Shown here piece by piece: positions 9,973-30,489 of a stretch of 64,000 bases of DNA. A program made the translations under genes and the position numbers. The DNA is from Crenothrix sp. D3. Lineage in GTDB: Bacteria > Pseudomonadota > Gammaproteobacteria > Methylococcales > Methylomonadaceae. Below the pieces are notes generated by a model that was given only the letters and a program-made list of their open reading frames with translations, did no database searches and was not told the DNA's origin. The stretch lies in the NCBI GenBank assembly GCA_002134785.1, contig MBQZ01000073.1, forward strand, positions 62,001-126,000, given 5' to 3'. Every line of letters starts with the position of its first letter. Positions within the stretch are counted from its first letter, which is position 1.

Positions 9973-11616
<1,644 letters not shown>

Positions 11617-11624
11617 AAAAACCT

Positions 11625-11655
11625 GAGTAGAGACGCGTATAGCGCGTCTCTACTC
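11625..11655. repeat. Palindromic element (GTAGAGACGCG type), also likely terminator of pgm
   Basis: A 13-bp perfect stem (GAGTAGAGACGCG / CGCGTCTCTACTC) with a 5-nt loop, beginning 9 bases after the pgm stop. The core GTAGAGACGCG/CGCGTCTCTAC recurs as a perfect palindrome inside the hydrogenase-like large-subunit gene at 28394-28421, so this is a dispersed repeat and not only a terminator. Confidence 0.85.
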
Positions 11656-11678
11656 ATTCATTCCCTCAAATACCTGTA

Positions 11679-11975
11679 TTACCAAGACAAGCGCAGACTG
11701 TTGTTTGGATATTGTGGTTGAGTATAGATAACTGGCGGTTGCTGATAATAATGAGCTGGTGGTTGTGGGTAATAGCGAACCTCTGGTTGCTGATAATAAC
11801 GAACGGGGGGTTGCTGATAGTAACGCACCTCTGGTTGTTGGTAATAGTAATTACGGTGATGCCCATGATGCCCCCAACCATGACCACGGTGTCCAGAATC
11901 ATCATCAGCGTAAGATAGTGGGGGAAAAAAGATGACGGCTGCAATTAATTGGGTTAAAAAAATTATTTTTTTCAT
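11679..11975 (-). CDS. Small exported His- and YYQQP-repeat protein
   Basis: A 98-residue protein of no recognised family. Signal peptide residues 1-23 (cleavage after SYA), an acidic/His-rich segment (DDDSGHRGHGWGHHGHH, residues 24-40), then about five 8-residue repeats of the type YYQQPEVR/YYQQPPVR (residues 44-83) and a short tail. The His cluster could bind metal; the Tyr/Gln/Pro repeats suggest an extended envelope or surface protein. Both ideas are inference. A second overlapping frame on the same strand reflects the repetitive composition. The signal peptide and repeat structure support it as a real gene. Confidence 0.7.
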   Translation of the reverse strand: MKKIIFLTQLIAAVIFFPPLSYADDDSGHRGHGWGHHGHHRNYYYQQPEVRYYQQPPVRYYQQPEVRYYPQPPAHYYQQPPVIYTQPQYPNNSLRLSW

Positions 11976-12110
11976 GACTACATTCCTTCAAAAGATGGAT
12001 TTAATTCGATTCTCTACTCAGGCAAAAACGCAAATCACCTGCGATAAACTTTGAATTTATGTTATTCCTTTTAACCTTAACCGCCGCTGAATGAATCACA
12101 ACTTTAGAGC

Positions 12111-13115
12111 ATGAATACTTTGTTAAAAATCGGTTTTTTACTCTCCGCTATTTTTTTCGTCACTATTGCCAGTGCAGATGATGACGATGCCCAGCCAAAA
12201 CAGAAAGTACAACGTATAGAAGGTCAAACCGTTATTGTATTGGATGCTAAAGCGCGACAGCACTCAGGGCTACAAACCATGATTTTAAAGCCCGCAACGC
12301 ATCATGCCGAATATACTGCCTATGGTAAAGTGTTAGCAATTCAGCCATTAATAGCATTACGTCACCGTTATTTAACTGCCTTAACTGAACGTAATACGGC
12401 CAGCGCGAAATTCAAACAAGCGGAGCAGAGTATCGAACGCCAACAAGCGTTATATCGTGAAGGCGTTACCGCAAAACGTAATCTGCAAGATCAACAAGCG
12501 CAATGGCAAATTGACAAAGCCCAACTCGAAGCGACCCATTTTCAAGATCAAAGCATTAAAGATGAAGCCATACTCACATGGGGTAACACCTTGACTGAGT
12601 TGGTATACTCTAGCGATACCAACAAGCTCAACGCTTTGTTATCTGGACAACAAAAACTATTACAAATCACCTTGCCGAGCAATCAACAGCTAGCCCATGA
12701 CATAAAAACCATTGCCATTGAACCTGCGGGTAATCGTAGCAAAGCCCATAAAGCTGAATTTATTTCTACCGCGCCACAAACTGATGCCAGCGCACAAGGC
12801 AGTAGTTATTTTTTTCAGACGACAGATAAAAATATCAGAATTGGCATGAATGTGACGGCGTGGATACCTGAGCAGAACAGCCAATTATCAGGCGTTGTAA
12901 TTCCTAAATCCGCGTTACTGTGGTCGATGGATCAAGCATTTGTGTATATTAAAACGGATGACACATTTAGTCGCCGCCCCATTCATCATTATTCAATGAG
13001 CGGTGACGGCTATTTTGTCAGTGAAGGCATCAAACCCGATGAGGAACTGGTGATAACAGGCGGGCAGATGTTGTTGTCGGAAGAAATGCGCGGGCAGATT
13101 CCTGATGAGGATTGA
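12111..13115 (+). CDS. Efflux periplasmic adaptor (membrane fusion protein, RND-type), no pump gene adjacent
   Basis: A 334-residue protein. Signal peptide 1-22 followed by an Asp-rich mature start (ADDDDAQPKQK); lipoyl/barrel-hybrid regions flank a short alpha-hairpin (residues about 95-150, YLTALTERNTASAKFKQAEQ then RNLQDQQAQWQ); a C-terminal beta-barrel/membrane-proximal part has VVIPKSALLW and ELVITGGQMLLSEEM. The layout resembles CusB/NccB-like adaptors that join an RND pump to an outer-membrane factor in metal efflux. No RND permease is nearby; the closest partner is the outer-membrane factor on the other strand at 14272-15675. Substrate unknown. Confidence 0.8.
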   Translation: MNTLLKIGFLLSAIFFVTIASADDDDAQPKQKVQRIEGQTVIVLDAKARQHSGLQTMILKPATHHAEYTAYGKVLAIQPLIALRHRYLTALTERNTASAKFKQAEQSIERQQALYREGVTAKRNLQDQQAQWQIDKAQLEATHFQDQSIKDEAILTWGNTLTELVYSSDTNKLNALLSGQQKLLQITLPSNQQLAHDIKTIAIEPAGNRSKAHKAEFISTAPQTDASAQGSSYFFQTTDKNIRIGMNVTAWIPEQNSQLSGVVIPKSALLWSMDQAFVYIKTDDTFSRRPIHHYSMSGDGYFVSEGIKPDEELVITGGQMLLSEEMRGQIPDED

Positions 13116-13140
13116 TTGTTTTGTCCATGAAAAGCACGAA

Positions 13141-13162
13141 AAATGATTTTAAAATCATTTTT
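13141..13162 (+). terminator. Palindromic hairpin after the adaptor gene
   Basis: Perfect 11-bp palindrome (AAAATGATTTT / AAAATCATTTT) followed by further T residues, 25 bases after the adaptor stop. Probably a Rho-independent terminator, though the stem is AT-rich. Confidence 0.5.
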
Positions 13163-13251
13163 TAGTATTAAACGCGGTTAGACCACTAAGAGACTTAATG
13201 TTTTACGTTTATTAGGATGTCTAATTTGTTATACCAAAAATGGAGAGATGA

Positions 13252-14202
13252 ATGAATCATTCAGATATTATAGAAATACTCAGACAAAGACCGTCTGTCC
13301 ATAAGCTCTGCTATGGTGGGTTTATCCAAGAAGCTCTAAAACTCAAAGAAAATGTATACGCTGTCCCACTTAAGGCTCTAGGATTTGCTTCTGAATCGGG
13401 ATATACATCTCAATATGTTGTTGAGATATGCGAAGGAAATGTTGAACAAAAACAGTTTGACAGTTTATTAAAACAGGGTGAACAAGCATTACCCGTTATC
13501 GCTTTAGTTGTTATTTTAGATAATGCGTGTTCTCCAGAAAACATGGAGGCTGATGCCGAGAGACAATTACTTATTCCAGAAAAAATAACTGGTTGGTCTG
13601 CTGGAGAGTCTTTAGTCCCTTTTGCCTACATAACCTGCGACAAGGAACAACACTTTTTTCGAGTCGTTCCTCCTCATAGCCGCAGGAGACAGAGATTAGG
13701 GTTCGGAAACACAGGTTCTGATTATTCCAGTCAAATATCAAAAATGGTTGAGTGTGCAGAAAAAGATGAACACTTTTTATTTGCTATTAGCTTATACAAA
13801 GATGCCTTAGCAGAAGATAATCAAATTTTTAGAATAGCTCGTTTTTTTTCGTGCTTAGAAAGCCTTGCTTACAAAATTAAGTCAGATGAGTTCCCTTCGC
13901 GCAAAGCAGTTAAAGCATTATTAGGTTTAGATGAAGGAGCGATGATGCAACTTAATATTGGTGGGAAAGAATACAAATTTGACAGAATTGAAATAGCTGG
14001 TAGGCTTCGCGACAAACTGTTCCATGGTGTGCCATTTAAAGAAAGTGACCTTAATTCACAATCTAAGCATGTCTTTGAGTTGATTAAGTGCGAACCAGAA
14101 TTAATTGCTAGTTCTTTGCGTGATGATTGTGAGTTGGAATTTGCGCGATGGGCTAATGGCGCATCAAATGGACTCAAGCAAACCAAGCGCGGTAACTCAT
14201 AG
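13252..14202 (+). CDS. Unrecognised protein with HEPN-like C-terminal domain
   Basis: A 316-residue protein. I do not recognise the N-terminal 170 residues. The C-terminal region (about 175-300) is helical and contains FRIARFFSCLESLAYKI and later GRLRDKLFHG, giving an R-x4-H pattern (Arg253, His258) like the catalytic motif of HEPN nucleases and Apea-like HEPN proteins. That fold is frequent in toxins, abortive-infection and other defence proteins. There is no partner antitoxin gene next to it. Start ATG at 13252 has GGAGAG upstream. It is isolated between efflux genes and bracketed by near-identical inverted repeats, suggesting acquisition. Function not assigned. Confidence 0.6.
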   Translation: MNHSDIIEILRQRPSVHKLCYGGFIQEALKLKENVYAVPLKALGFASESGYTSQYVVEICEGNVEQKQFDSLLKQGEQALPVIALVVILDNACSPENMEADAERQLLIPEKITGWSAGESLVPFAYITCDKEQHFFRVVPPHSRRRQRLGFGNTGSDYSSQISKMVECAEKDEHFLFAISLYKDALAEDNQIFRIARFFSCLESLAYKIKSDEFPSRKAVKALLGLDEGAMMQLNIGGKEYKFDRIEIAGRLRDKLFHGVPFKESDLNSQSKHVFELIKCEPELIASSLRDDCELEFARWANGASNGLKQTKRGNS

Positions 14203-18817: not shown

Positions 18818-20140
18818 TTACCAGATTTTTTCCCACCATTGATTATCGGCACCGCCTGTTTTTGGTGCATCGTCAAGATTCATTTTCTTTCTAATGTCTG
18901 CTACAGACCAACCTGTTAATTCAGCCAAAGTTTTAGCTTCTTGCTCATGGCGTTCAGCTAATTGTTTAAAATAGGTTTTTGCCGCTTCACATTGTTCAGG
19001 ATTACCTTGCCACGCATGACGCAAAACATAACGTCCTTGGAAATTCGCGGTATCGCTGGTTTCTTGAAACACTAAGTCTTCGGGGAAACTATCAGGTGTA
19101 TAACGAACGTGTAAACGTGTCACTTGCACAGGTATTCCCATACCGCGTTGACTGTTACCATCCAACCAAAACACGCCTAATTGCTTTAATTCTTCGGGGC
19201 TTAATGGTTCTGCCGCACACGGATCGCACCAACCCATATTCCAAAAATATTCGGTAAATACGGCGCGTAGATTTTGTTTTTTAACTTGGGTTTCAAACAT
19301 CACTTTATAAAAGTTAGCAAAATCATCTTTGATATGAACAGGAATATCCATGTTGCTAGGCAATTTCAGCGTTTGATAATTACTGGCTTCCACGCGTCCT
19401 TTTTCACTCAAGATATACACCAATAAATCTTGCGGCCCTTTGGCATTAATCATCCCTAAGCGAATTGGCAACATAAATTTAGGCGATTCAAACGCAAACT
19501 GTAGTGGGCGTAAAAACTTTGATCCTGTTTTACTTTGTTCTTTAAGATTGACTTTAGCGACAAAAAATTTCAAGCCCTGTTTAATATAAGGCTGTAAGGC
19601 GGCACTTGCACCGTCAGGAATTTTATAACCGCTACTTTGTAACCATGTTTCTAGCCCATCAGATTCTTTTGCCGATAAAATCACAATATCGTATTCGCCC
19701 ACGGTATATTCCGCTTCAACCGTTACCCCTAAACTTTTATCGCTTTTGGCTTTTTGTGGCATGGCAGCGGCGGGCATGGGTACGGACTTAGACATCATTT
19801 CGTACATAACACGCGGCTGGCAAGGATCTTCATCATGATATTCCACTAAACGCGGCGCGGTGAAATTATCAATATGCGCAAAAATTTTAGCATCACCGAT
19901 ATGAATCTGACCTTCTTTCAATACCTCTGGCACGGGAACAACTAAAGCGAAATCTTGCAATTCTCCCTGATAATCGTTCATTAAACTTAACACCGTTTTG
20001 TTGCCTTTTCGTGCCATCACCACTTGCGAGGCTTGGTTATACAAACTAGCATCAGCTTTAGCGACATAAAAGCCACAAAACGCCTGACTGGTTTGGCTAA
20101 TTAAACTAGCCAGTAATAAAAATAGTAATCGGGTAATCAT
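18818..20140 (-). CDS. DUF2330 domain exported protein
   Basis: A 440-residue protein when started at 20140 (MITRLLFLL), which gives a clean signal peptide ending TSQAFC and a 4-base ATGA overlap with the gene upstream. The open frame extends 44 codons further upstream but that part only mirrors the neighbouring gene. After the signal peptide comes the DUF2330 pattern (ADASLYNQASQVVMARKGNK, LVVPVPEVL). The domain is of unknown function. The C-terminal segment ends in a region with GADNQWWEKIW. It is paired with an RnfD-like membrane protein. Confidence 0.88.
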   Translation of the reverse strand: MITRLLFLLLASLISQTSQAFCGFYVAKADASLYNQASQVVMARKGNKTVLSLMNDYQGELQDFALVVPVPEVLKEGQIHIGDAKIFAHIDNFTAPRLVEYHDEDPCQPRVMYEMMSKSVPMPAAAMPQKAKSDKSLGVTVEAEYTVGEYDIVILSAKESDGLETWLQSSGYKIPDGASAALQPYIKQGLKFFVAKVNLKEQSKTGSKFLRPLQFAFESPKFMLPIRLGMINAKGPQDLLVYILSEKGRVEASNYQTLKLPSNMDIPVHIKDDFANFYKVMFETQVKKQNLRAVFTEYFWNMGWCDPCAAEPLSPEELKQLGVFWLDGNSQRGMGIPVQVTRLHVRYTPDSFPEDLVFQETSDTANFQGRYVLRHAWQGNPEQCEAAKTYFKQLAERHEQEAKTLAELTGWSVADIRKKMNLDDAPKTGGADNQWWEKIW

Positions 20141-21015
20141 GAGTTTTCTCCAGAAAGGGATTGCCATTGATAACGCGGAGCGGGAAATAAATGATTCCAT
20201 AATGGCACAAAAGGTGTCGCTAAAAACAGCCCCCAAATTATGCCTTGATTCCCATAAAATTGGTATTGCCAAATGTAGGCGAATACCGACACTAAGGCGG
20301 CATGAATAATTCTCGCCTTGTAGTGACGGGGAATTGTCATCGGATCAGAAATCATAAAAAAGGCAAATAATAATAACGCGCCATTTTGAAATTGATGAAA
20401 AAAAACAGCAAGTGGATAGCCATACCACGCAATACGAATTAATAAAAAAAGACTGCCATAAAATAATAAAAAATAGCCTGTAATATCCAAGCGATGTGCA
20501 TTTCGAGTCACAAAAAAACCTGCGGCAATCAGCCATAATGCTGTAGTTAAATCCGCGCCCCATTGCCCGCTCGTTACCCAAGTATGCGGGAAAAAAATTA
20601 ATCCTAAAACGACACCAAAATTGGCAGGATTAAATAAATGTGCGCCTTGTGGACGAATTAAAAACTTACTCGCCATTGCTAAACTGACAACTACAGGATG
20701 CACCCACAGTGTCGAGCTACGCAATAATAAACACAGCCCAAAACAAGTAATCATCGCACTGAGAAAACCCCGTTGTTGCAGTTTAAACTGGCGCAAGAAA
20801 AACCACTGCGTTATTAAACCAGCGGTAAAGGTGAGACCGATTTGAGCAGGATATAAACTAAAATCTCGAAGCCACACACCTGACAATAATAAACTTGCCA
20901 TAATCAGTAACTGCCAGACACGGATGTCTAACCCAGAAATAACTAACAGCCAACGCAAATTCCCACGCTGGAAAAAATTACACCTATCTAATTTACAACA
21001 CATCCAGTTTCTCAT
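20137..21015 (-). CDS. Stand-alone RnfD/NqrB-like membrane protein
   Basis: About 270-292 residues with roughly eight to ten membrane segments. It resembles the NQR2/RnfD family: RPQGAHLFNPANFGVVLGL near residue 120 and FFMISDPMTIPRH near residue 218 are the regions that in RnfD/NqrB surround the covalent flavin site. No other rnf/nqr genes are present, so it is not a full Rnf complex. Neighbour DUF2330 overlaps by 4 bases. The start is uncertain: the ATGs at 21015 and 21003 fall inside a uvrD-like tail fragment read in another frame, and TTG at 20958 is an alternative. Confidence 0.75.
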   Translation of the reverse strand: MRNWMCCKLDRCNFFQRGNLRWLLVISGLDIRVWQLLIMASLLLSGVWLRDFSLYPAQIGLTFTAGLITQWFFLRQFKLQQRGFLSAMITCFGLCLLLRSSTLWVHPVVVSLAMASKFLIRPQGAHLFNPANFGVVLGLIFFPHTWVTSGQWGADLTTALWLIAAGFFVTRNAHRLDITGYFLLFYGSLFLLIRIAWYGYPLAVFFHQFQNGALLLFAFFMISDPMTIPRHYKARIIHAALVSVFAYIWQYQFYGNQGIIWGLFLATPFVPLWNHLFPAPRYQWQSLSGENS

Positions 21016-21342: not shown

Positions 21343-22992
21343 ATGAATGAGTCTACTTTTTCAGCACTACCTAAAACAGGTTTAGCTGGATTAAAAGAAA
21401 ACTGGCGTGCCGATTTTCTGTCAGGTTTTTTAGTGTTTCTAATTGCCTTGCCATTATGCCTAGGCATTTCAATGGCTTCGGGCTTTCCACCCTCAGCGGG
21501 TATTATCACCGCGATTATTGGCGGCGTATTAGTGTCGCGTATTAGTGGTTCATTTATTACTATTAATGGCCCTGCGGCAGGTTTGATTGTGGTGGTGTAC
21601 GATGCGGTACAGTCCTTAGGTGAAGGCGATGCAATGGCGGGGTATCGTTTCACATTGGCAGCAATTGTCATTGCTAGTGTGGTACAGATATTAATGGGCG
21701 TGTTTAAAGCGGGACGTTTAAGTTCGTTTTTTCCCGCCTCTGTAGTGCATGGTATGTTAGCCGCCATCGGTATCATTATCATGGCGAAACAAATCCATGT
21801 CGTACTAGGTGTCACACCCGACAAAGGCAATTTAATTTCTACTATCGCGCAAATCCCACATAGTTTTCTGAATATGAATCATGAAATTGCCATCATCGGC
21901 TTTTCGGGATTAGCTATTCTGATTGCGTGGTCACTGATTAAAAATAAAACTTTAAAGATGATCCCCGCACCGCTGATTGTGGTGTTAGTCGGTATCGGTT
22001 TTGCCCGTTACTTCGACTTAGATCATCAGCACATGTATTTGTTTTTACCCGATGCACATTTTTTACCCCATCATGAAGAAACCGTTGGCCCTGTGTTTTT
22101 AGTGGCTATTTCTGAAAACTTTATGTCTAGCTTTTATTTTCCTGATTTTTCTAAATTTGCCACCTTAGAATTTTGGGAAGCAGTAGTAACAATTAGTTTA
22201 GTCGGTAGCTTGGAAAGTCTATTAAGTGCAATGGCAGTGGATAAATTAGACCCTTACAAACGCCACTCTAATTTGAATAAAGATTTAACCGCAGTCGGCG
22301 TGGGTAACTTGGTTGCAGGTTGTGTCGGTGGTTTGCCGATGATTGCGGAAATCGTCCGTAGTTCGGCTAACGTCAATAATGGCGCGAAAACCAGTTGGGC
22401 TAACTTTTTTCACGGCTCGCTATTGTTGTTATTCGTGGTGCTGTTTCCCCGCTTAATACACAGTATTCCGTTAGCGGCTTTAGCTTCATTACTGGTCTTT
22501 ACAGGATTTCGCTTAGCCTCGCCTAAAGAATTTATGCACGTTTTTCACATTGGCAAAGAACAGTTTCTTATGTTTGTGGTAACAGTGGTTGGTGTTATCG
22601 CAACGGATTTATTGGTCGGTGTCGCGATTGGTATTTTGGTAAAACTGAGCATTCATTTAATGCGCGGCGTTAATTTCAGCAATCTATTCAAAATTAACTT
22701 TAGCGTTGAACAAAAAGCGAACACTGTTTTTATTGAAATCAGCGGCGCAGCAGTGTTTTCTAATTTCATGGCATTAAAAGACGCGCTGGCTAAGTTGGAA
22801 AACGGTAAAACTATCGTATTTCAATTAAACGACACCTATTTGCTTGATCATACCGTGATGGAATTTTTTCATGATTTTCAACATAACTATGAAGCGCAAG
22901 GCGGTCACTGTGAATTTTTAGGTTTGGAATATCACGAATCTTATTCAGACCATCCATTGGCTGCACGGCGCATGAAACCTGATTATTCTTAG
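21343..22992 (+). CDS. SulP-family anion transporter with STAS domain
   Basis: A 549-residue inner-membrane transporter. The transmembrane core begins with the SulP start (NWRADFLSGFLVFLIALPLC, residues 20-39) and includes SRISGSFITINGPAAGLIVV and LVAGCVGGLPMIAEIVRSSA. A C-terminal STAS domain covers about residues 440-549. SulP proteins carry sulfate, bicarbonate or other anions, some with Na+ or H+ coupling. The position directly upstream of a hydrogenase-4-like ion-translocating operon suggests bicarbonate or coupled anion uptake; this is inference. A palindromic terminator follows, with the operon starting 84 bases after the stop. Confidence 0.92.
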   Translation: MNESTFSALPKTGLAGLKENWRADFLSGFLVFLIALPLCLGISMASGFPPSAGIITAIIGGVLVSRISGSFITINGPAAGLIVVVYDAVQSLGEGDAMAGYRFTLAAIVIASVVQILMGVFKAGRLSSFFPASVVHGMLAAIGIIIMAKQIHVVLGVTPDKGNLISTIAQIPHSFLNMNHEIAIIGFSGLAILIAWSLIKNKTLKMIPAPLIVVLVGIGFARYFDLDHQHMYLFLPDAHFLPHHEETVGPVFLVAISENFMSSFYFPDFSKFATLEFWEAVVTISLVGSLESLLSAMAVDKLDPYKRHSNLNKDLTAVGVGNLVAGCVGGLPMIAEIVRSSANVNNGAKTSWANFFHGSLLLLFVVLFPRLIHSIPLAALASLLVFTGFRLASPKEFMHVFHIGKEQFLMFVVTVVGVIATDLLVGVAIGILVKLSIHLMRGVNFSNLFKINFSVEQKANTVFIEISGAAVFSNFMALKDALAKLENGKTIVFQLNDTYLLDHTVMEFFHDFQHNYEAQGGHCEFLGLEYHESYSDHPLAARRMKPDYS

Positions 22993-23010
22993 TTTTTCAA
23001 GGAGTAAGAC

Positions 23011-23040
23011 CTGCGAGATTTTTAAAACCTCGCAGTCTTT
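23011..23040 (+). terminator. Palindromic repeat acting as terminator after SulP
   Basis: CTGCGAG / CTCGCAG stem around an AT-rich loop, followed by TCTTTTT. It resembles the CTCCGAGGTTTTAAAAACCTCGGAG repeat family found at 30467, 34306 and 50122. Confidence 0.65.
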
Positions 23041-23075
23041 TTAGGCAACAATACATACCATTACGAGAATTCATT

Positions 23076-25187
23076 ATGATTCTATTCTTAGCTTATTGTG
23101 CGGTGCTATTTAGCTTTGCGTCTGGTTTATTAGCCTTGCTAAGTAATCAGCAGCAATCCTTATTAGCATTACAGCAGCGATATTTAAAAAATCCATCCGC
23201 GTTTATTATTCATTGTTTAGAAGAACATCACTACCCAATTTTTTTACGGCAAGTCGTGTTTATTTTGCTGGGGTTATCAGGCGTATTTGCGGTATTAGCA
23301 GGCTTAAGTGTGCTGATTAGCAACACGGTAGTGACTGATCAACTCAGTTTAGGATTGCCGTGGTTGCCTTGGCATATTCGTTTTGATGCCTTATCGGGAT
23401 TTTTCTTTTTAATCATAGGTATTGCGGTGGGTGCGGTCAGTTTATACGGGCCAGGTTACGTCCATCATTACAAAGAACAAGACCATCCGTTTGCGGTATT
23501 AGGTTTATTCACAGGCTTATTTGTCACAGGGATGCTGTTGGTGTTAATCGCCGATGATGCTTTCATGTTCATGATTGCGTGGGAATTGATGTCGGTTGCC
23601 AGTTATTTTCTAGTGGCATTTCAACACGAACACGCAGCCAATCGCCGCGCTGCTTTTTTGTATTTGTTAATGGCAGAAGTGGGCGCGTTAGCCATTATTT
23701 TAGGCTTCGGCGTGTTGGCAAGTTTTTCTGATGGCTTTACCTTTGATGCGTTACGTCATGCCCAGTTATCAACAACGTGGGCAAGTATTGCCTTTGGTTT
23801 AGCAGTGTTAGGTTTTGGTATGAAAGCGGGTATTGTGCCGATTCACGTCTGGTTGCCTGAAGCACATCCTGTCGCACCGTCGCATATTTCCGCACTGATG
23901 AGCGGCGTGATGTTGAAAGTTGCGATATATGGCTTGATACGTTTCTCGTTTGATTTACTGGATAAAATTCAGTGGCAATGGGGCGTGGTGTTATTGGTTA
24001 TCGGCACAATTTCAGCCTTAGGCGGGATTTTATACGCCATGATGCAGCCGAATTTAAAACGCTTGTTGGCGTATAGTTCGGTGGAAAACATTGGTATTAT
24101 TTTTATGGTGCTGGGCTTATCAATGATTTTTCTTGATAACGGGCATCCTGAATTGGCGGCGTTAGGCTTTTTAGCGGCGTTATTTCATGCCTTTAACCAC
24201 GCGTTATTCAAGAATTTATTGTTTTTGGGCGCGGGTATGATTCACCAACAAACCCACGAGTTGAACATTGATATGTTGGGCGGCTTGATTAAAAAAATGC
24301 CTAAAACTAGCATGGTGTTTTTAGTCGGCTGTATGAGTATTTCATCGTTGCCGTTGTTTAACGGTTTTGTATCGGAATGGTTGGCGTTTCAAACCGCGTT
24401 GCAAGTCGATGTGTTAGATAACGGCGTATTGCGCAGTTTGATTCCTGTGTCTGCCGCCGCGTTGGCTTTAACTGCCGCGTTAGCCGCCGCCTGTTTTGTC
24501 AAAGTATTTGGCTTAACATTTTTGGGTGTGCCGCGTTCACGACACAGTGAAAAAGCCCACGAAGTAAAAGATAAAGGGATGTTAGCTGCCACGACTTTAT
24601 TGGCTGGGCTATGTTTTTTAGTCGGTATTTTCCCCAGCGTGATTATCAGTTTAATCAATAAGGTATCAGGACAGTTACTAGCACAAACCGTCGTTAACGA
24701 CAAAGCAATGAGCTGGTTATGGCTTACCCCTGTTCAAGCATCTGCGGAACAGGCTTCGTATGCACCATTATTGGTATTGATTGGCGCGTTAATAGCAGGT
24801 GGTGTGTGTTATTGGTATTTACGCCGCGATCCTGAAAAAGCTATACGCATTGCTCCAACGTGGGATTGCGGTTTTGGTGGTTTAACACCGCGTATGCAGT
24901 ACACCTCCAGTGCGTTCACCATGCCGATTCGGCGCATTTTTGCCAAAGCGTGGATTATTGATGAACAAGTGGATAAAGACTTAGAGGGCGCGATGAATCA
25001 AAACGTAGCCGCTGTGCATTATGCCTTGCACGTTCAAGATCACAGTTGGCCGTGGGTTTATCATCCGCTGGAACGAGGCGTAAATCACCTTGCCAAGCAA
25101 GTAGGACGCATTCAAACGGGTAATATTCGTACTTATTTGGGCTATTCGTTTGTCACTTTATTACTGTTGTTGTGGGTGATTAGCTGA
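23076..25187 (+). CDS. hyfB: Hydrogenase-4 subunit B-like (HyfB) antiporter-type proton channel subunit
   Basis: A 703-residue protein of the Mrp/NuoL-like antiporter family with about 16 membrane segments. The conserved core is present: FMIAWELMSVASYFLV near residue 165 (key Glu), FGMKAGIVPIHVWLPEAHPVAPSHISALMSG near 245-275 (key Lys and Pro) and KRLLAYSSVENIGII near residue 328. The C-terminal part (from about 590) carries WDCGFGGLTPRMQYTSSAF, typical of HyfB/HycC. It is the first gene of a six-gene complex-I-like operon and should conduct protons or Na+. Confidence 0.93.
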   Translation: MILFLAYCAVLFSFASGLLALLSNQQQSLLALQQRYLKNPSAFIIHCLEEHHYPIFLRQVVFILLGLSGVFAVLAGLSVLISNTVVTDQLSLGLPWLPWHIRFDALSGFFFLIIGIAVGAVSLYGPGYVHHYKEQDHPFAVLGLFTGLFVTGMLLVLIADDAFMFMIAWELMSVASYFLVAFQHEHAANRRAAFLYLLMAEVGALAIILGFGVLASFSDGFTFDALRHAQLSTTWASIAFGLAVLGFGMKAGIVPIHVWLPEAHPVAPSHISALMSGVMLKVAIYGLIRFSFDLLDKIQWQWGVVLLVIGTISALGGILYAMMQPNLKRLLAYSSVENIGIIFMVLGLSMIFLDNGHPELAALGFLAALFHAFNHALFKNLLFLGAGMIHQQTHELNIDMLGGLIKKMPKTSMVFLVGCMSISSLPLFNGFVSEWLAFQTALQVDVLDNGVLRSLIPVSAAALALTAALAAACFVKVFGLTFLGVPRSRHSEKAHEVKDKGMLAATTLLAGLCFLVGIFPSVIISLINKVSGQLLAQTVVNDKAMSWLWLTPVQASAEQASYAPLLVLIGALIAGGVCYWYLRRDPEKAIRIAPTWDCGFGGLTPRMQYTSSAFTMPIRRIFAKAWIIDEQVDKDLEGAMNQNVAAVHYALHVQDHSWPWVYHPLERGVNHLAKQVGRIQTGNIRTYLGYSFVTLLLLLWVIS

Positions 25188-25226
25188 TGAACAGATTACT
25201 AAACATCACTCGTTCCACGCGAGAAA

Positions 25227-25244
25227 GCGCGAATGAATTCGCGC
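25227..25244. repeat. Short palindrome between hyfB-like and hyfC-like genes
   Basis: GCGCGAAT-GA-ATTCGCGC, an 18-bp palindromic hairpin in the 73-bp gap of an otherwise overlapping operon. It may be a dispersed repeat or an mRNA-processing hairpin. Confidence 0.5.
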
Positions 25245-25260
25245 CTACTGGAGAAACAGC

Positions 25261-26205
25261 ATGAACTGGTTAATCGCTATCCTACAAACAGCCTTATTTG
25301 TCGCCTTGGCTCCGTTATTGGCAGGCTGGCTAAAGCGTTGTAAATGTCATTTACAAAACCGACAATCCCCTCCACTGCTACAGCCGTATCGGGATTTATT
25401 CAAGTTATTCAATAAACAGCCTGTCGTGTCCGAACAGGCTTCGTGGTTGTTTATTAAAGCACCGTACATTATTTTTTCGGCAACGGTACTTGCCGCCACA
25501 GTTGTTCCGTTGATCGCTGTTGATCTCCCCACCTCAGCAAGCGCGGATGTAATTGTGATGGTGGGATTTTTTGCCTTTGCGCGGTTTTTTCTCGCCTTGG
25601 CAGGTTTAGATATAGGCACAGCATTTGGTGGCATGGGTTCATCACGCGAAATGACGATTTCGTCATTGGCTGAACCCGCGATGTTAATGGCAGTGTTTAC
25701 CCTGACCATGACCGCATCAACCACTAACTTATCGTATGCAATCAGCCACGTTTTAGAGCAAGGCTTGGTGTTGCGTCCATCGTTTGTATTTGCGTTATTC
25801 GCATTAATTTTAGTAGCAGTGGCAGAAACAGGGCGCATTCCTGTGGATAATCCGACCACGCATTTAGAGTTAACCATGATTCATGAAGCTATGATTCTGG
25901 AATATAGCGGTCGGCATTTGGCGTTAATCGAATGGGCTAGTCAACTGAAATTGATGTTATACGGCGTGTTGATTGCCAACATCTTTTTTCCGTGGGGCAT
26001 TGCGCAAACCTTCTCATTACACGATTTGGGTTACGGATTGTTAGCCATTATCGGCAAGCTCGCCGTGTTAGCCGTTATTCTGGGCATTGCAGAAACGCTG
26101 GTAGCAAAAATGCGTTTATTCAAAGTGCAAGAATACCTCGGTTTTGCTTATTTATTGGGCTTGCTGGGGATGTTGAGCCACATCATTTTGGAGGCTTCAC
26201 GATGA
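25261..26205 (+). CDS. Complex I subunit 1 / HyfC-like membrane subunit
   Basis: A 314-residue protein of the NuoH/HyfC/EchB family with eight membrane segments. It shows the quinone/hydrogenase-module docking features: PYRDLFKLFNKQ near residue 41, GSSREMTISSLAEPAMLM near residue 124 and the AETGRIPVDNPTTHLELTMIHEAM segment near 181-204. It anchors the peripheral module to the membrane arm. The gene overlaps the hyfE-like gene by 4 bases. Confidence 0.93.
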   Translation: MNWLIAILQTALFVALAPLLAGWLKRCKCHLQNRQSPPLLQPYRDLFKLFNKQPVVSEQASWLFIKAPYIIFSATVLAATVVPLIAVDLPTSASADVIVMVGFFAFARFFLALAGLDIGTAFGGMGSSREMTISSLAEPAMLMAVFTLTMTASTTNLSYAISHVLEQGLVLRPSFVFALFALILVAVAETGRIPVDNPTTHLELTMIHEAMILEYSGRHLALIEWASQLKLMLYGVLIANIFFPWGIAQTFSLHDLGYGLLAIIGKLAVLAVILGIAETLVAKMRLFKVQEYLGFAYLLGLLGMLSHIILEASR

Positions 26206-26879
26206 ATATTGAATCCCAAGATTTGTACACACAAATCATTTTATCAATGGCGGCATTAGTGGGCTTGACCTCCTTTTTAATGTTAGGGCAAGGTCGCTTG
26301 TTACGCTTAATTTTTGTGTTTGCCGTACAAGGTTTTTTATTAACGCTGACGACCGCGTTAGCCGCATATAGCTTAGACAATCATCATTTATATATCTCAG
26401 CGGTCTTAACACTCGCGCTAAAAGTGATTTTTATTCCGTGGATGCTACGCCGTGAAGTCTTAAACTCCAACCTACACCGTGATGTGGAAGCCTTAGGCAA
26501 TCAAACCGCTATTATGTTAGGCGGGGCAAGTTTAATGGTGTTCAGTTATTACGTTTTACACCCTATCGTCCAAACCACTTCACCCGTGATGCTGAACGCA
26601 TTGGCAGTGAGTTTGTCGGTGGTGTTATTAGGAATGCTATTAATGATTTCCCACAAACAAGCCATTGCCCACGTCGTGGGTTTTATGTCCATCGAAAACG
26701 GCTTGTTTTTCGCCGCCATCGTGGCAACTAAAGGAATGCCAATGGTGGTTGAGCTGGGTATTGCTTTTGACGTATTAGTCGCCGCCGTGTTATTCGGTAT
26801 TTTCTTCTTTCATATCCGCACCAGCATTGATTCGTTGGATGTCGATTTGCTTAATAAATTACATGAGGTGGATAAATGA
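26202..26879 (+). CDS. hyfE: HyfE-like membrane subunit
   Basis: A 225-residue protein with about seven membrane segments. The start at 26202 (MNIESQDLYTQ) gives ATGA overlap with the preceding gene. The longer upstream open frame is only the shadow of the hyfC-like gene. It matches HyfE, whose C-terminal part resembles NuoK (GFMSIENGLFFAAIVATKGMP near residue 160 with a membrane Glu). It overlaps the next gene by 4 bases. Confidence 0.9.
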   Translation: MNIESQDLYTQIILSMAALVGLTSFLMLGQGRLLRLIFVFAVQGFLLTLTTALAAYSLDNHHLYISAVLTLALKVIFIPWMLRREVLNSNLHRDVEALGNQTAIMLGGASLMVFSYYVLHPIVQTTSPVMLNALAVSLSVVLLGMLLMISHKQAIAHVVGFMSIENGLFFAAIVATKGMPMVVELGIAFDVLVAAVLFGIFFFHIRTSIDSLDVDLLNKLHEVDK

Positions 26880-28339
26880 TCCCCGCCTATTTATTGTTAT
26901 CCATTGCCTTTGTCGGCATCGTGTTTTTTGCCGTATCAGGACACAAAGCTGAAATAGGAAAAATCAATGTCTGGTTTAATGCGGGGAGTTTAATTGCTTC
27001 CATCTGGTTAGCCATTAACGTACTAAACAACGGCACGATTTTATCAGCGGACAAAGCCTTTTTAATTGATTCATTTAATGTCTATTTGATTGTCTTGACC
27101 GCGTTTATTGGCTTAACTACCTCTATCTTTTCTAATCCTTACATGGAACATGAAAAAGACTTGGGCAAACTTACTGCTAAACGTTTAAAACTGTATTACT
27201 CGATGTATCAAGGCTTCATGTTGGCGATGTATTTGGTATTAACCACCAATAACATGGGCGTGATGTGGGTCGGTATGGAAGCAGCAACGCTCGCCACGGT
27301 GTTATTGGTCAGTTTATACCGCACCCCTGAATCTATCGAAGCAGCGTGGAAATATTTCATCCTCTGCGGGGTTGGTATTGCTCAAGCCCTGTTCGGCACG
27401 ATTTTATTGTATTACGCCGCCATGCAGATTGGTGACGGTGAAAACGCGCTGTTATGGTCAGAATTATTTAAAAATGCCAGCCAATTAAACCCCGAAGTTT
27501 TAGAAATTGCTTTTGTGTTTTTACTGATTGGTTATGGCACTAAAATCGGTTTAGTTCCGCTGCACAACTGGCTGCCCGATGCACATTCCGAAGGCCCTAC
27601 GCCGATGTCAGCGGTATTATCAGGCTTATTATTGAATGATGCTTTATACGCAGTAGTGCGTAACAAAATGTTAGTTGATGGTGCTACCCATTCTGATATG
27701 GCAGGGCATTTAATGATGGGCTTCGGCTTATTGTCATTCTTAGTCGGCGCGTTATTTTTACATCGGCAAAAAGACATTAAACGATTGTTTAGCTATTCCT
27801 CTATCGAACACATGGGCTTAATGACGTTTGCGTTTGGTATCGGCGGTTCGTTAGCGACTTTTGCCGCTTTACTACACATGATGGTACATTCCTTAACTAA
27901 ATCTGCCATTTTTGTGACAGTAGGTCATGCCACTCAAGTGGCAGGCACACAACGCATGGATAAAATACGCGGACTAATTAAGACCCAACCTAAAATCGGC
28001 TGGGGCTTATTAATCGGTACAATTTCTATCGCAGGTTTTCCACCCTTTGGCGTATTCACCAGTGAATTTTTAGTGTTACTGGCAACCATGCACAGCTATC
28101 CGTGGCTAACCTTGCCGTTATTACTGGGTATTGGTATCGCTTTTGCGGGCTTGTTTCGCCACATCCAACCCATGGTTTATGGTGCGAAACCCGAAGGTCA
28201 ACAAGCTGTTAAAGCTAATTTATTACCTGTGATGATTCATCTCGCCTTAGTGTTATGGCTAGGTTTAGCAATTCCAAGTTTCTTGGCACATTGGTTTTCA
28301 CAAGCGACGGTATTAATTGCTGGAGGCAGCCCATTATGA
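26876..28339 (+). CDS. hyfF: Hydrogenase-4 subunit F-like (HyfF) antiporter-type subunit
   Basis: A 487-residue NuoN/HyfF-type protein with about 13-14 membrane segments. Conserved elements are MGVMWVGMEAATLATVLLV near residue 127 (key Glu), YGTKIGLVPLHNWLPDAHSEGPTPMSAVLSG near 221-250 and KRLFSYSSIEHMGLMTF near residue 301. It is the second ion-channel-like subunit of the complex; no HyfD equivalent is present. Both ends overlap neighbours by 4 bases. Confidence 0.93.
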   Translation: MIPAYLLLSIAFVGIVFFAVSGHKAEIGKINVWFNAGSLIASIWLAINVLNNGTILSADKAFLIDSFNVYLIVLTAFIGLTTSIFSNPYMEHEKDLGKLTAKRLKLYYSMYQGFMLAMYLVLTTNNMGVMWVGMEAATLATVLLVSLYRTPESIEAAWKYFILCGVGIAQALFGTILLYYAAMQIGDGENALLWSELFKNASQLNPEVLEIAFVFLLIGYGTKIGLVPLHNWLPDAHSEGPTPMSAVLSGLLLNDALYAVVRNKMLVDGATHSDMAGHLMMGFGLLSFLVGALFLHRQKDIKRLFSYSSIEHMGLMTFAFGIGGSLATFAALLHMMVHSLTKSAIFVTVGHATQVAGTQRMDKIRGLIKTQPKIGWGLLIGTISIAGFPPFGVFTSEFLVLLATMHSYPWLTLPLLLGIGIAFAGLFRHIQPMVYGAKPEGQQAVKANLLPVMIHLALVLWLGLAIPSFLAHWFSQATVLIAGGSPL

Positions 28340-29916
28340 ATTGGACAACAGATTTTTTAAATCAGCTGATTGATGTCGGTATCTCGCTTGACCGTAGAGA
28401 CGCGATTAATCGCGTCTCTACAACAGCGGTGTGGCAAATCGAAGATAAACATTGGCAACAATTCGCCATTACCGCATTGGTAGAAAATTTACGCTGGGTG
28501 GCAGGTTGGGCAGAACAAGCAGATGAACAGTTTATGGTGAACGCCTGTTTTGAAAAAAACGGCGTTTATGTGGTCTTACGCACGGTGATTAATGCGGTGA
28601 AACCCGAACTACCTACGCAAGCTACGGTATACCCAGCGGCAAATCGCAGTGAACGCCACACCCAAGATATGTTCGGCATTAAATTTATGGGGCATCCCGA
28701 TAATCGCCGCTGGACACGTCATCAAGCGTGGGATAAACACCAATACCCCTTGCGCAAAGATTTTCCAGCACAAGGCTCACCCGTCGAGATTACACCGCCC
28801 GATATGCACTACGACTTTATCAAAGGTCACGGTGCAGGCGTGTATGAAATCCCTGTTGGCCCGGTTCATGCGGGCATTATCGAACCTGGCCATTTTCGCT
28901 TTCTAGCGGTGGGCGAGTTGATTTTGAATCTCGAAGAACGCTTAGGTTATGTCCATAAAGGCATTGAAAAAATTGCCGAAGGTAGAACGCCAGAATCCTT
29001 AGCGCGGTTAGCGGGACGGGTTTCAGGTGACAGCACGGTTGCGCATTGTTGGGCAGCCTGCATGGCAATGGAACAAGCCGCCGATGTGATTGTACCCAAT
29101 CGCGCCGCCTTCATACGCGGCATAGTCGCAGAACGTGAACGCATTGCCAATCACCTAGGCGACATGGGCGCGATTTGTAATGATGTCGCGTTTACCTTTG
29201 CACAAATGCAGTTCACCCGTTTGCGTGAACGCTGGTTACGCACCAATGCTACCGTATTTGGACACCGTTTATTAATGGATGTGATTGTCCCTGCGGGTGT
29301 GCGTTGTGATGTATCGCCTGTGGCTTGTGAGTTACTAAAACAAGATATTGCTTGGCTGAAAAAAGAACTCTCAGAGATTATACCGTCAATAGATTTGAAT
29401 TCGTCTTTAGAAGACCGACTATACACCGCAGGTTATTTATCGCCAGAAATAGCGGCAGCGTTCGGCACAGTCGGTTATGTTGGTAGAGCCAGTGGACAAG
29501 ATTTTGATGTGCGCCGTGACGCAGTTTATCCGCCATACAACCAATTCACGTTTAAAGTCGCTGTAGAAGATCAAGGTGATATTGCCTCACGGTTTTGGGT
29601 GCGTCACAAAGAAATCATGGCTTCCCTAAAACTGATTAGCCAATTCATTGAGCAACTACCCGAAGGTGACATCAGCACGCCGTGGATAACACCCGTTATA
29701 GACAGTGAAGGCTTAGGCATTGTCGATGGTTTTCGCGGTGAAATTATCAGTTATGTACGTTTTGCTGCACACAATAAAATCGCCCGTTTCTATCCGCGTG
29801 ATCCCAGTATTTTAAACTGGCCTGCTCTGGAAAAACTGGTGCTGAATAATATCGTGCCTGATTTTCCCGTGTGTAACAAATCCCTGAATGGCTCGTATTC
29901 GGGCAATGATTTATAG
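28336..29916 (+). CDS. HyfG/NuoCD-like large subunit lacking NiFe ligands (Ehr type)
   Basis: A 526-residue fusion: residues about 1-170 are NuoC/HycE-N-like (YPAANRSERHTQDMFGI near 100) and about 180-526 are the catalytic-like large subunit (GPVHAGIIEPGHFRF, LGYVHKGIEKIAEG). The N-terminal NiFe motif that should read RxCGxC is RVSGDS here, and the C-terminal DPCxxC is replaced by DFPVCNKSLNGS. With at most one ligand left it cannot bind a NiFe centre in the known way, so it belongs with energy-converting hydrogenase-related (Ehr) complexes. I start it at 28336 (MNWTTDF), ATGA-overlapping the hyfF-like gene. A 28-bp palindrome is embedded near its 5' end. Confidence 0.88.
   Translation: MNWTTDFLNQLIDVGISLDRRDAINRVSTTAVWQIEDKHWQQFAITALVENLRWVAGWAEQADEQFMVNACFEKNGVYVVLRTVINAVKPELPTQATVYPAANRSERHTQDMFGIKFMGHPDNRRWTRHQAWDKHQYPLRKDFPAQGSPVEITPPDMHYDFIKGHGAGVYEIPVGPVHAGIIEPGHFRFLAVGELILNLEERLGYVHKGIEKIAEGRTPESLARLAGRVSGDSTVAHCWAACMAMEQAADVIVPNRAAFIRGIVAERERIANHLGDMGAICNDVAFTFAQMQFTRLRERWLRTNATVFGHRLLMDVIVPAGVRCDVSPVACELLKQDIAWLKKELSEIIPSIDLNSSLEDRLYTAGYLSPEIAAAFGTVGYVGRASGQDFDVRRDAVYPPYNQFTFKVAVEDQGDIASRFWVRHKEIMASLKLISQFIEQLPEGDISTPWITPVIDSEGLGIVDGFRGEIISYVRFAAHNKIARFYPRDPSILNWPALEKLVLNNIVPDFPVCNKSLNGSYSGNDL
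28394..28421 (+). repeat. Palindromic repeat inserted in frame in the large-subunit gene
   Basis: Perfect 28-bp palindrome, GTAGAGACGCG-ATTAAT-CGCGTCTCTAC, spanning codons 20-29 of the large-subunit gene. It is read through in frame (Arg-Arg-Asp-Ala-Ile-Asn-Arg-Val-Ser-Thr). The same arms form the hairpin after pgm at 11625-11655. Confidence 0.85.
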
Positions 29917-29925
29917 GAAACCGCC

Positions 29926-30438
29926 ATGTTGAATATGATAAAAAAAATCGTCACCACAGGCATCGTGACGGAAAAATACAAAGCCCCCAAAGACGATGAA
30001 TTAGAGACTTTAGGCATAGAAATCAAACGCCGCATTGATAAAAAATTTTCGGGTAGTATTGCCATTCGTCAAGTCGATGCAGGCTCGTGTAACGGCTGTG
30101 AACTAGAAATTCACGCGCTGAATAATCCGTTTTATGACGTTGAGCGGTTTGGTATTCACTTCGTCGCCTCACCTCGTCATGCAGATGTATTGCTAGTCAC
30201 AGGGCCTGTATCCAGACACATGCAAACCGCCTTACTGCGTACTTACGATGCCACACCCAATCCAAAATGGGTAGTCGCCGTGGGTGATTGTGCAGTCTGT
30301 GGCGGTGAATTTGGGCAGTCTTACGCCAGTTGTGGCGCGGTGTCTAATGTCATTCCTGTTGATGTCACCATCAGCGGTTGCCCACCGACACCGTTAGCAT
30401 TAATGAAAGGCTTGTTGGGCTTGATAGACTCTCGATAA
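29926..30438 (+). CDS. NuoB/HyfI-like iron-sulfur small subunit
   Basis: A 170-residue protein of the NuoB/EchC/HyfI family. Four cluster ligands are visible: SCNGCELEI (near residues 50-56), GDCAVCGGEF (near 121) and SGCPPTP (near 145), which would hold one [4Fe-4S] cluster equivalent to N2 of complex I. It starts 9 bases after the large subunit. No ferredoxin-type subunit (HyfA/HyfH) or second NuoL-type subunit follows, so the operon is B-C-E-F-G-I only. Confidence 0.93.
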   Translation: MLNMIKKIVTTGIVTEKYKAPKDDELETLGIEIKRRIDKKFSGSIAIRQVDAGSCNGCELEIHALNNPFYDVERFGIHFVASPRHADVLLVTGPVSRHMQTALLRTYDATPNPKWVVAVGDCAVCGGEFGQSYASCGAVSNVIPVDVTISGCPPTPLALMKGLLGLIDSR

Positions 30439-30466
30439 GTTGCTTTCAAAACAAACCACTCAAACC

Positions 30467-30489
30467 TCCGAGGTCTTTAAGACCTCGGA
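30467..30489. repeat. Palindromic repeat (CCGAGGT family) between convergent genes
   Basis: TCCGAGGTCTT-T-AAGACCTCGGA, 11-bp arms and one-base loop, between the Ehr operon end and the J-domain gene. It is one of four related palindromes in the window and may serve as a bidirectional terminator. Confidence 0.75.

Follow-up and report, generated by a model that had tools for sequence, protein, structure and literature searches.

Ehr complexes, encoded by ehrABCDLS or hyf-like hyfBCEFGI gene sets, are described in Geobacter, comammox Nitrospira, Methylacidiphilum and M. tuberculosis (Rv0081-Rv0087) as having lost the NiFe ligands while possessing a complex I-like membrane arm and an Fe-S small subunit (PMC10284858, PMC7894505, PMC5596200, PMC6688271, PMC6728331; all papers are cited here from excerpts). 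Their function is given as unknown (PMC10284858, PMC6728331), and they are also presented as suspected ion-pumping redox complexes or presumed hydrogenases (PMC10284858, PMC6728331, PMC5596200, PMC6349859, PMC6688271). DAB is an experimentally established system in which CO2 hydration and uptake are driven by the proton-motive force (PMC13144422), and in Methylococcus capsulatus a SulP whose operon also encodes a beta-carbonic anhydrase is proposed as a bicarbonate importer (PMC11423575). We analyzed a 64,000-nucleotide stretch of Crenothrix sp. D3, a member of the Methylococcales, an order of aerobic methanotrophs (contig MBQZ01000073.1, positions 62,001 to 126,000; hereafter the window), which lies on contig C73 of a 3.63 Mb genome in 103 contigs. 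Between positions 21343 and 30438, seven genes follow one another on the + strand: SulP, hyfB, hyfC, hyfE, hyfF, hyfG and hyfI. The hyf operon has in common with the described Ehr systems the gene set, the NiFe-ligand loss, the membrane arm and the Fe-S small subunit. Judged from its sequence, the hyfBCEFGI product is an Ehr complex and not a hydrogenase; a functional link between SulP and Ehr is well supported, and we put at about 0.5 the probability that, in Methylococcales, the two work as a single functional module handling dissolved inorganic carbon.

The former NiFe site and the conserved subunits

To locate the NiFe ligand positions, a profile built from 24 HyfG sequences was aligned to solved structures. 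Its best match was HycE of E. coli (7z0s_E, E 1.8e-93), and it also matched MbhL of Pyrococcus furiosus (6cfw_L). In this alignment, the RVCGIC motif of HycE and MbhL falls on RVSGDS of HyfG, which bears out the replacement of RxCGxC noted in a preliminary description of the locus made from the letters alone. The same description had taken DFPVCNKS as the counterpart of the second motif, DPCxxC, and had concluded that at most one of the four NiFe ligands remains. That alignment has to be rejected: the profile places the C-terminal motif of HycE and MbhL (DPCYSC/DPCLSC) on NGSYSG (N519-G524), nine residues past the D of DFPVC, and for this reason the number of retained ligands is 0/4.

The residues found at the four former ligand positions are themselves conserved, mostly as S, S/T, S and G, when the order and class samples (see below) are taken together, 121 sequences in all: S231 is S in 115, A in 3 and C in 3; S234 is T in 72, S in 45, A in 3 and C in 1; S521 is S in 110, A in 7, N in 1 and a gap in 3; and G524 is G in 115, A in 3 and a gap in 3. 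D233, between the first two lost ligands, is present in 121/121. The conserved C-terminal end reads DFPVCNKSxNxSYSGxDL, and the protein stops three residues past the former motif. In true NiFe large subunits, a C-terminal extension is cleaved off by a maturation protease; HyfG is devoid of the extension typical of these subunits, as it is of the RxCGxC and DPCxxC pair that characterizes Group 4 [NiFe] hydrogenases and hydrogenase-4. The preliminary description had proposed modelling the pocket left by the NiFe site. A structure model of HyfG yielded a predicted fold (predicted template modelling score 0.86, best structural match 7z0s_E), with a predicted local distance difference test (pLDDT) score below 50 at the pocket segments 165-207 and 512-527; no argument is therefore built on the pocket.

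HyfI and the membrane subunits HyfB, HyfC and HyfF are conserved at positions expected to matter for redox chemistry and ion translocation, in agreement with what had been noted from the window itself. HyfI, which matches 7z0s_G (E 2e-36), has its [4Fe-4S] ligands, Cys 55, 58, 122 and 152, in 114/114 sequences. The charged residues of the membrane arm, which we take to be those of complex I-type ion paths, are near-invariant across relatives: E170, K250 and E434 of HyfB in 112/112 sequences and K281 in 110/112; E135, K223 and K342 of HyfF in 120/120 and E397 in 119/120; E189, D196, E203 and E209 of HyfC in 113/113. The operon thus combines large and small subunits of the Group 4 hydrogenase/complex I-like type with NuoH-like and NuoL/N-like membrane subunits, the NiFe ligands being absent and the proximal [4Fe-4S] ligands kept, which is what defines Ehr. 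The complex encoded here is maintained, and it is probably ion-translocating and probably redox-active.

We considered whether the operon could nevertheless encode a working or decaying hydrogenase-4, given its homology to HycE and HycG and the finding of HypD in the same genome (HypF/HypE-like open reading frames (ORFs) adjoin it, by reading). The preliminary description had named maturation genes as a sign of hydrogenase activity, and HypD is indeed one. Its presence does not, however, imply that hyf encodes a hydrogenase, because the genome also encodes, at another place (L316:1408-2958, - strand), a NiFe large subunit of canonical type, with the motifs RLCGIC and DPCLSC, which can account for HypD. 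With all four ligands lost, the replacements conserved in 121 sequences and the reading frames intact, this explanation can practically be dismissed, and a hydrogenase or formate hydrogenlyase was rejected on the absence of the NiFe ligands. An ORF reading like NAD synthetase lies directly 3' of the canonical large subunit.

Linkage of SulP with hyf and dabA

HyfG was found in 123/251 Methylococcales genomes, and regions were taken from 80 of the 122 besides our own, picked by hand down the list (order, genus and family counts follow the genome labels assigned in the data set). SulP is present in 55/80 of these order regions and in 24/32 genera. It mostly lies directly upstream of hyf on the same strand, as in the window, is divergent in two regions (L153, L156) and sits between hyfF and hyfG in three (L170, L173, L181); in twelve, two SulPs of the same group stand in tandem. 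Since the position of SulP varies, SulP-hyf is not one frozen block. As to the 25 regions devoid of SulP, absence says little for five of them: the sequence before hyfB is shorter than 400 nucleotides in L124 and L162 and than 1.7 kb in L165, and L145 and L146 have no hyfBCE matches. The latter two belong to genus g292 and have just hyfF-G-I of the six hyf genes in the region, and a SulP copy elsewhere in genome G519 has an internal stop; these g292 modules are possibly decaying.

We then compared the neighbourhoods of hyf and dabA in 80 genomes (our own and 79 of the 80 fetched, G575 being left out). The SulP group was defined as the 135 entries of at least 47% identity; entries listed at 42% or below and those not listed were dropped. 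It occurs in 78/80 genomes. A member lies within 8.5 kb of hyfG in 56/80 genomes (57 with G517 counted). Applied to DabA matches, the same limit gives 13/80 genomes, 11 of these within 0.7 kb (the outliers are G376, at 6.0 kb, and G553, at 8.3 kb; the DabA of G428 is a fragment). Among the regions listed, the typical order is sulP-dabA-dabB, with DUF2490 next in several. Linkage to dabA is commoner where SulP is not hyf-linked (9/24 vs 4/56, Fisher p=0.0017), also among the 57 dabA-bearing genomes (9/17 vs 4/40, p=0.001), although these tests ignore shared ancestry. In G517, dabAB stands between hyfG and SulP, which are 5.8 kb apart, and this genome was assigned by hand to the set that is not hyf-linked; counted as hyf-linked, it gives 8/23 vs 5/57 (p=0.008), and a 1-kb limit gives p=0.002, or 0.011 with G517 hyf-linked, shared ancestry again being ignored.

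In a SulP tree of 87 entries, hyf-linked and dabA-linked members are intermixed. The dabA label requires nine changes, compared with a mean of 12.3 after shuffling; seven of the nine are forced by well-supported branches, and six or so is the safer figure (one of the 13 dabA-linked entries, the second SulP of L224, 15 kb from dabA, was mislabelled). The tree implies that SulP changed partners repeatedly, the labels being somewhat clustered.

The two systems also meet directly. In 3/80 genomes (G393, G517, G553), hyfG and dabA are no more than 3 kb apart; the number expected, for the wider limit of 8.5 kb, is 0.31. Two of these three, G517 and G553, have SulP there as well. An alpha-carbonic anhydrase gene lies within 8 kb of hyfG, upstream of hyfB, in 2/80 (G453, G376). 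DUF2490 is found in 29/80 order hyf regions, 8/14 dab regions, 2/6 SulP-only regions and 0/40 class regions; by reading, its product is an outer-membrane barrel (L107:12729-13469, L160:10845-11612 and others). This cluster of neighbours of about 240 residues (c6) had been considered as a beta-carbonic anhydrase, which was rejected on its identification as DUF2490; beta-carbonic anhydrase genes occur in 80/80 genomes, a count of presence in the genome irrespective of distance to hyf. With one SulP group and an accessory gene adjoining either system, it is simplest to suppose that Ehr and DAB serve a common purpose in the broad sense, the handling of inorganic carbon, and that SulP carries the bicarbonate.

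Further observations concern the same SulP group. In one genome, 3.4 kb separate a gene for the RuBisCO large subunit from a SulP paralogous to that of the window (G376:C1:3937359-3943288). In the class sample outside the order, SulP reached the profile threshold in two genomes only; that of G025 (48%) is followed directly 3' by a DabA-like ORF (26% over 473 residues). A histidine kinase and a sigma-54-type (NtrC-type) response regulator are encoded beside SulP with or without hyf or dab (L221:11092-13950, L230, L231), and this pair, which recurs in several of these contexts, is a candidate regulator.

Proposed role and its alternatives

In the inorganic-carbon module, SulP, acting as an ion symporter or exchanger, would import bicarbonate or retain it, with Ehr supplying the energy, most simply as a redox-driven pump building the Na+ or H+ gradient that SulP uses. 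The bicarbonate gained could, in a genome devoid of RuBisCO, supply anaplerotic or biosynthetic carboxylases or contribute to pH balance. The preliminary description had suggested ion-coupled bicarbonate or anion transport rather than hydrogen metabolism: the second half holds, and the pairing of SulP with dabA favours inorganic carbon, while bicarbonate as the substrate and a single machine are hypothetical, as is the choice of coupled ion.

In a bolder variant, CO2 hydration would be driven by Ehr itself. Ehr would then be a CO2-hydrating complex coupled to redox or the proton-motive force, like DAB or cyanobacterial NDH-1MS; its new site would be what was once the NiFe pocket, and SulP would be an auxiliary bicarbonate carrier. 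The SulP/DUF2490 context shared by hyf and dabAB, the invariance of D233 and the near-invariance of the C-terminal NKSxN..YSGxD, which point to a different site being retained, are consistent with it, as is the resemblance of DabB to complex I subunits (PMC13144422). By contrast, the Pfam scan detected no DabA or carbonic anhydrase-like domain in the operon, and no zinc-site motif was demonstrated, the pocket segments being those of low pLDDT; we regard this variant as clearly unlikely.

Several points weigh against the inorganic-carbon module. First, the linkage is concentrated in one order. A HyfG relative was found in 57/369 genomes of the class sample, and in the 40 regions taken (L044 among them is an order member, and contig ends truncate several others) all six hyf genes are present in 33 and SulP adjoins hyf in only one, the SulP being of another subfamily. 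Likewise, among the best 80 loci from species genomes, which extend to several phyla, SulP is present in 10/15 loci assigned to the order by title and, either flanking the operon or within it, in only 4/65 outside the order (Thiomargarita, a Muproteobacterium, a gammaproteobacterium and Geobacteraceae), where it belongs to two other subfamilies; the Thiomargarita locus was taken to be the same as the single SulP-positive class region. Even among the 80 genomes, 24 have no SulP of the group closer than 8.5 kb to hyf. The SulP-hyf linkage is thus strong in Methylococcales and sporadic elsewhere, so that conservation of the gene order across relatives, on which the preliminary description had made its reading depend, was found within the order and rarely outside, and Ehr does not in general need SulP. 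Second, 54/135 SulP entries are near neither hyf nor dabA; the exclusion test gives p=0.029 with a 1-kb limit, G517 as hyf-linked and the G428 fragment dropped, shared ancestry being ignored; and order sequences were the source of the DUF2490 profile, whose frequencies have no background count. Third, SulP family members carry many different anions, and the window SulP scores 134 bits where the BicA equivalog NF050096 has a cut-off of 880 bits. Fourth, in a single region, that of G495 (L127:3-1930, - strand), both subunits, large and small, of a genuine NiFe hydrogenase are encoded upstream of SulP/hyf on the opposite strand. Finally, a palindrome in the SulP-hyfB gap (see below) could split transcription.

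Two further points of this kind lead to alternatives. RuBisCO is absent from 67/80 genomes searched, our own included, which is also consistent with a module for pH or ion homeostasis, in which Ehr would pump or exchange H+/Na+ and SulP would move a counter-anion (chloride, sulfate or bicarbonate), carbon being incidental. The conserved antiporter-like residues of HyfB and HyfF fit such a role, and Ehr has been proposed to act in pH homeostasis in Methylacidiphilum (PMC6688271). This explanation, which we hold to be unlikely though worth keeping in view, leaves unaccounted for the presence of the same SulP group beside dabA and the proximity of hyf to dabA and to alpha-carbonic anhydrase genes.

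The other concerns electrons: the Ehr operon has no electron-input subunit, and in Geobacter, Ehr subunits reach higher levels on formate (PMC7894505). Ehr could accordingly be an electron-entry complex linked to formate, ferredoxin or quinone, the SulP neighbour being coincidental; a link between formate dehydrogenase and Ehr has been proposed in other lineages (PMC6349859), and the Fe-S site of HyfI is conserved. However, the SulP linkage is recurrent, no gene of this kind was found among the scanned ORFs near the window operon (the 80 order regions had no systematic scan for formate dehydrogenase or NuoEFG), and HyfG does not retain the His/Tyr positions of NuoD (HMMER alignment to 7q5y), which are presumably quinone-related residues. 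We consider this explanation quite improbable.

The locus and its relation to known systems

The genes of the locus are packed closely (Table 1): hyfC and hyfE, hyfE and hyfF, and hyfF and hyfG each share a few bases, hyfG and hyfI are 9 nucleotides apart, and SulP lies directly before the operon, 83 nucleotides 5' of hyfB on the same strand, as originally noted. The start positions of HyfE and HyfG come from the analysis of subunit sequences. The palindrome ACCTSCGAGGTYTTTAARACCTCGG occurs dispersed at window positions 23009, 30464, 34304 and 50120, with 6 strand matches vs 0 expected from shuffles. It is possible that sulP and hyfB are on one transcript. Rfam gave no match anywhere in the window.

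Table 1. Genes and palindrome copies of the SulP-hyf locus (window coordinates)
Feature	Position	Strand	Basis or remark
SulP/SLC26 anion transporter, 549 aa	21343..22992	+	PF00916 E 1.2e-62
Palindrome copy then T run, possible attenuator	23009..23032		SulP-hyfB gap; absent from terminator-scan list
HyfB, NuoL-like antiporter-like subunit	23076..25187	+	NF005086 E 4e-243, above cut-off
HyfC, NuoH-like	25261..26205	+	PF00146
HyfE membrane subunit	26202..26879	+	NF008556 E 3e-22, under cut-off
HyfF, NuoN/M-like antiporter-like subunit	26876..28339	+	NF005045 E 6e-231, above cut-off
HyfG/EhrL large subunit, NuoC-NuoD fusion	28336..29916	+	PF00346+PF00329
HyfI/EhrS small subunit	29926..30438	+	PF01058
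Second palindrome copy, 3' of hyfI	30464..30487		Repeat search

The B-C-E-F-G-I gene set without ferredoxin, formate dehydrogenase or HyfD, as first described, agrees with the family scan: HyfA, HyfD, HyfH and formate dehydrogenase were not found among the Pfam-scanned ORFs around the operon (about 14-37 kb of the window), and the ferredoxin-type subunits HyfA/HyfH have no match in the operon, though the rest of the genome may hold them. Eleven flanking ORFs were assigned by Pfam (OEP, HlyD, DUF4389, DUF2333, DUF2330, RnfD/NQR2-like, UvrD, FxsA, CutA1, DsbD and, below cut-off, DnaJ-like). The DUF2330 protein and the RnfD/NQR2-like membrane protein are encoded divergently from sulP (18818-21015, - strand), and no further rnf genes were found among the scanned ORFs near the latter.

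The SulP protein belongs to the SulP/SLC26 family by its PF00916 transporter domain, and its predicted structure matches SLC26Dg, prestin, SLC26A11 and BicA in Foldseek. It thus has the fold and family of BicA and SLC26Dg, though identity in the alignment made by Foldseek is about 22%. It stays under the BicA equivalog cut-off, as it does under the NCBIfam cut-offs for DauA and sulP. Pfam gave no match for a STAS domain; the SLC26Dg alignment spans residues 262-530, and the model has alternating strands and helices past residue 450.

Among solved structures, the closest relative of HyfG and HyfI is E. coli formate hydrogenlyase (FHL-1, 7z0s), which, unlike Ehr, has the NiFe ligands. Formate hydrogenlyase also comprises ferredoxin-type subunits and FdhF. 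As for Ehr complexes themselves, the preliminary statement that they have no assigned substrate accords with the papers cited above that call their function unknown (PMC10284858, PMC6728331). The recurrent SulP pairing and the context shared with dabAB set the present complex apart from the known Ehr systems as portrayed in the excerpts consulted, and the portions of the open-licence literature that were searched did not connect Ehr with SulP or with dabAB; among the matches listed, no title concerned a methanotroph DabA protein. In 54 Ehr loci (52 outside the order, L262-L315, plus L247 and L259), no carbon-related cluster recurred besides the SulPs, and the commonest neighbour was, by reading, a small helix-turn-helix-like gene (13 loci). 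The Geobacteraceae locus L275 has two Ehr-like sets, with a SulP-STAS-cyclic nucleotide monophosphate-binding protein (11511-13748) between hyfG and hyfI; these domains led us to reject a fusion of SulP with carbonic anhydrase.

The occurrence of one SulP group beside Ehr or dabAB suggests a concrete, testable role for Ehr in a tractable group of organisms, and bears on CO2 acquisition by methanotrophs, including the many without RuBisCO. DAB has SulP and DUF2490 neighbours in common with hyf in the order, and DabB, HyfB and HyfF all belong to PF00361. It differs from the window operon in that HyfB and HyfF keep their charged residues and Ehr keeps a redox centre, whereas DabB2 is reported, in the excerpt consulted, to be without ion-pair motifs (PMC13144422); moreover, DabA (PF10070) was not detected in the window operon by the Pfam scan, the one DabA match of the genome being on contig C62. 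The likeness to cyanobacterial NDH-1MS is one of concept, NDH-1MS being a relative of complex I that serves CO2 uptake. NDH-1MS uses CupA/B, and no Pfam match suggestive of a CupA/B-like gene was found among the scanned ORFs around the operon. Taken further, the comparison would make Ehr a third complex I-derived inorganic-carbon machine beside DAB and NDH-1MS, a redox-coupled pump that would accumulate bicarbonate with SulP in methanotrophs, the carbon role perhaps reaching Ehr complexes of other phyla, an extension that we offer as tentative and doubtful.

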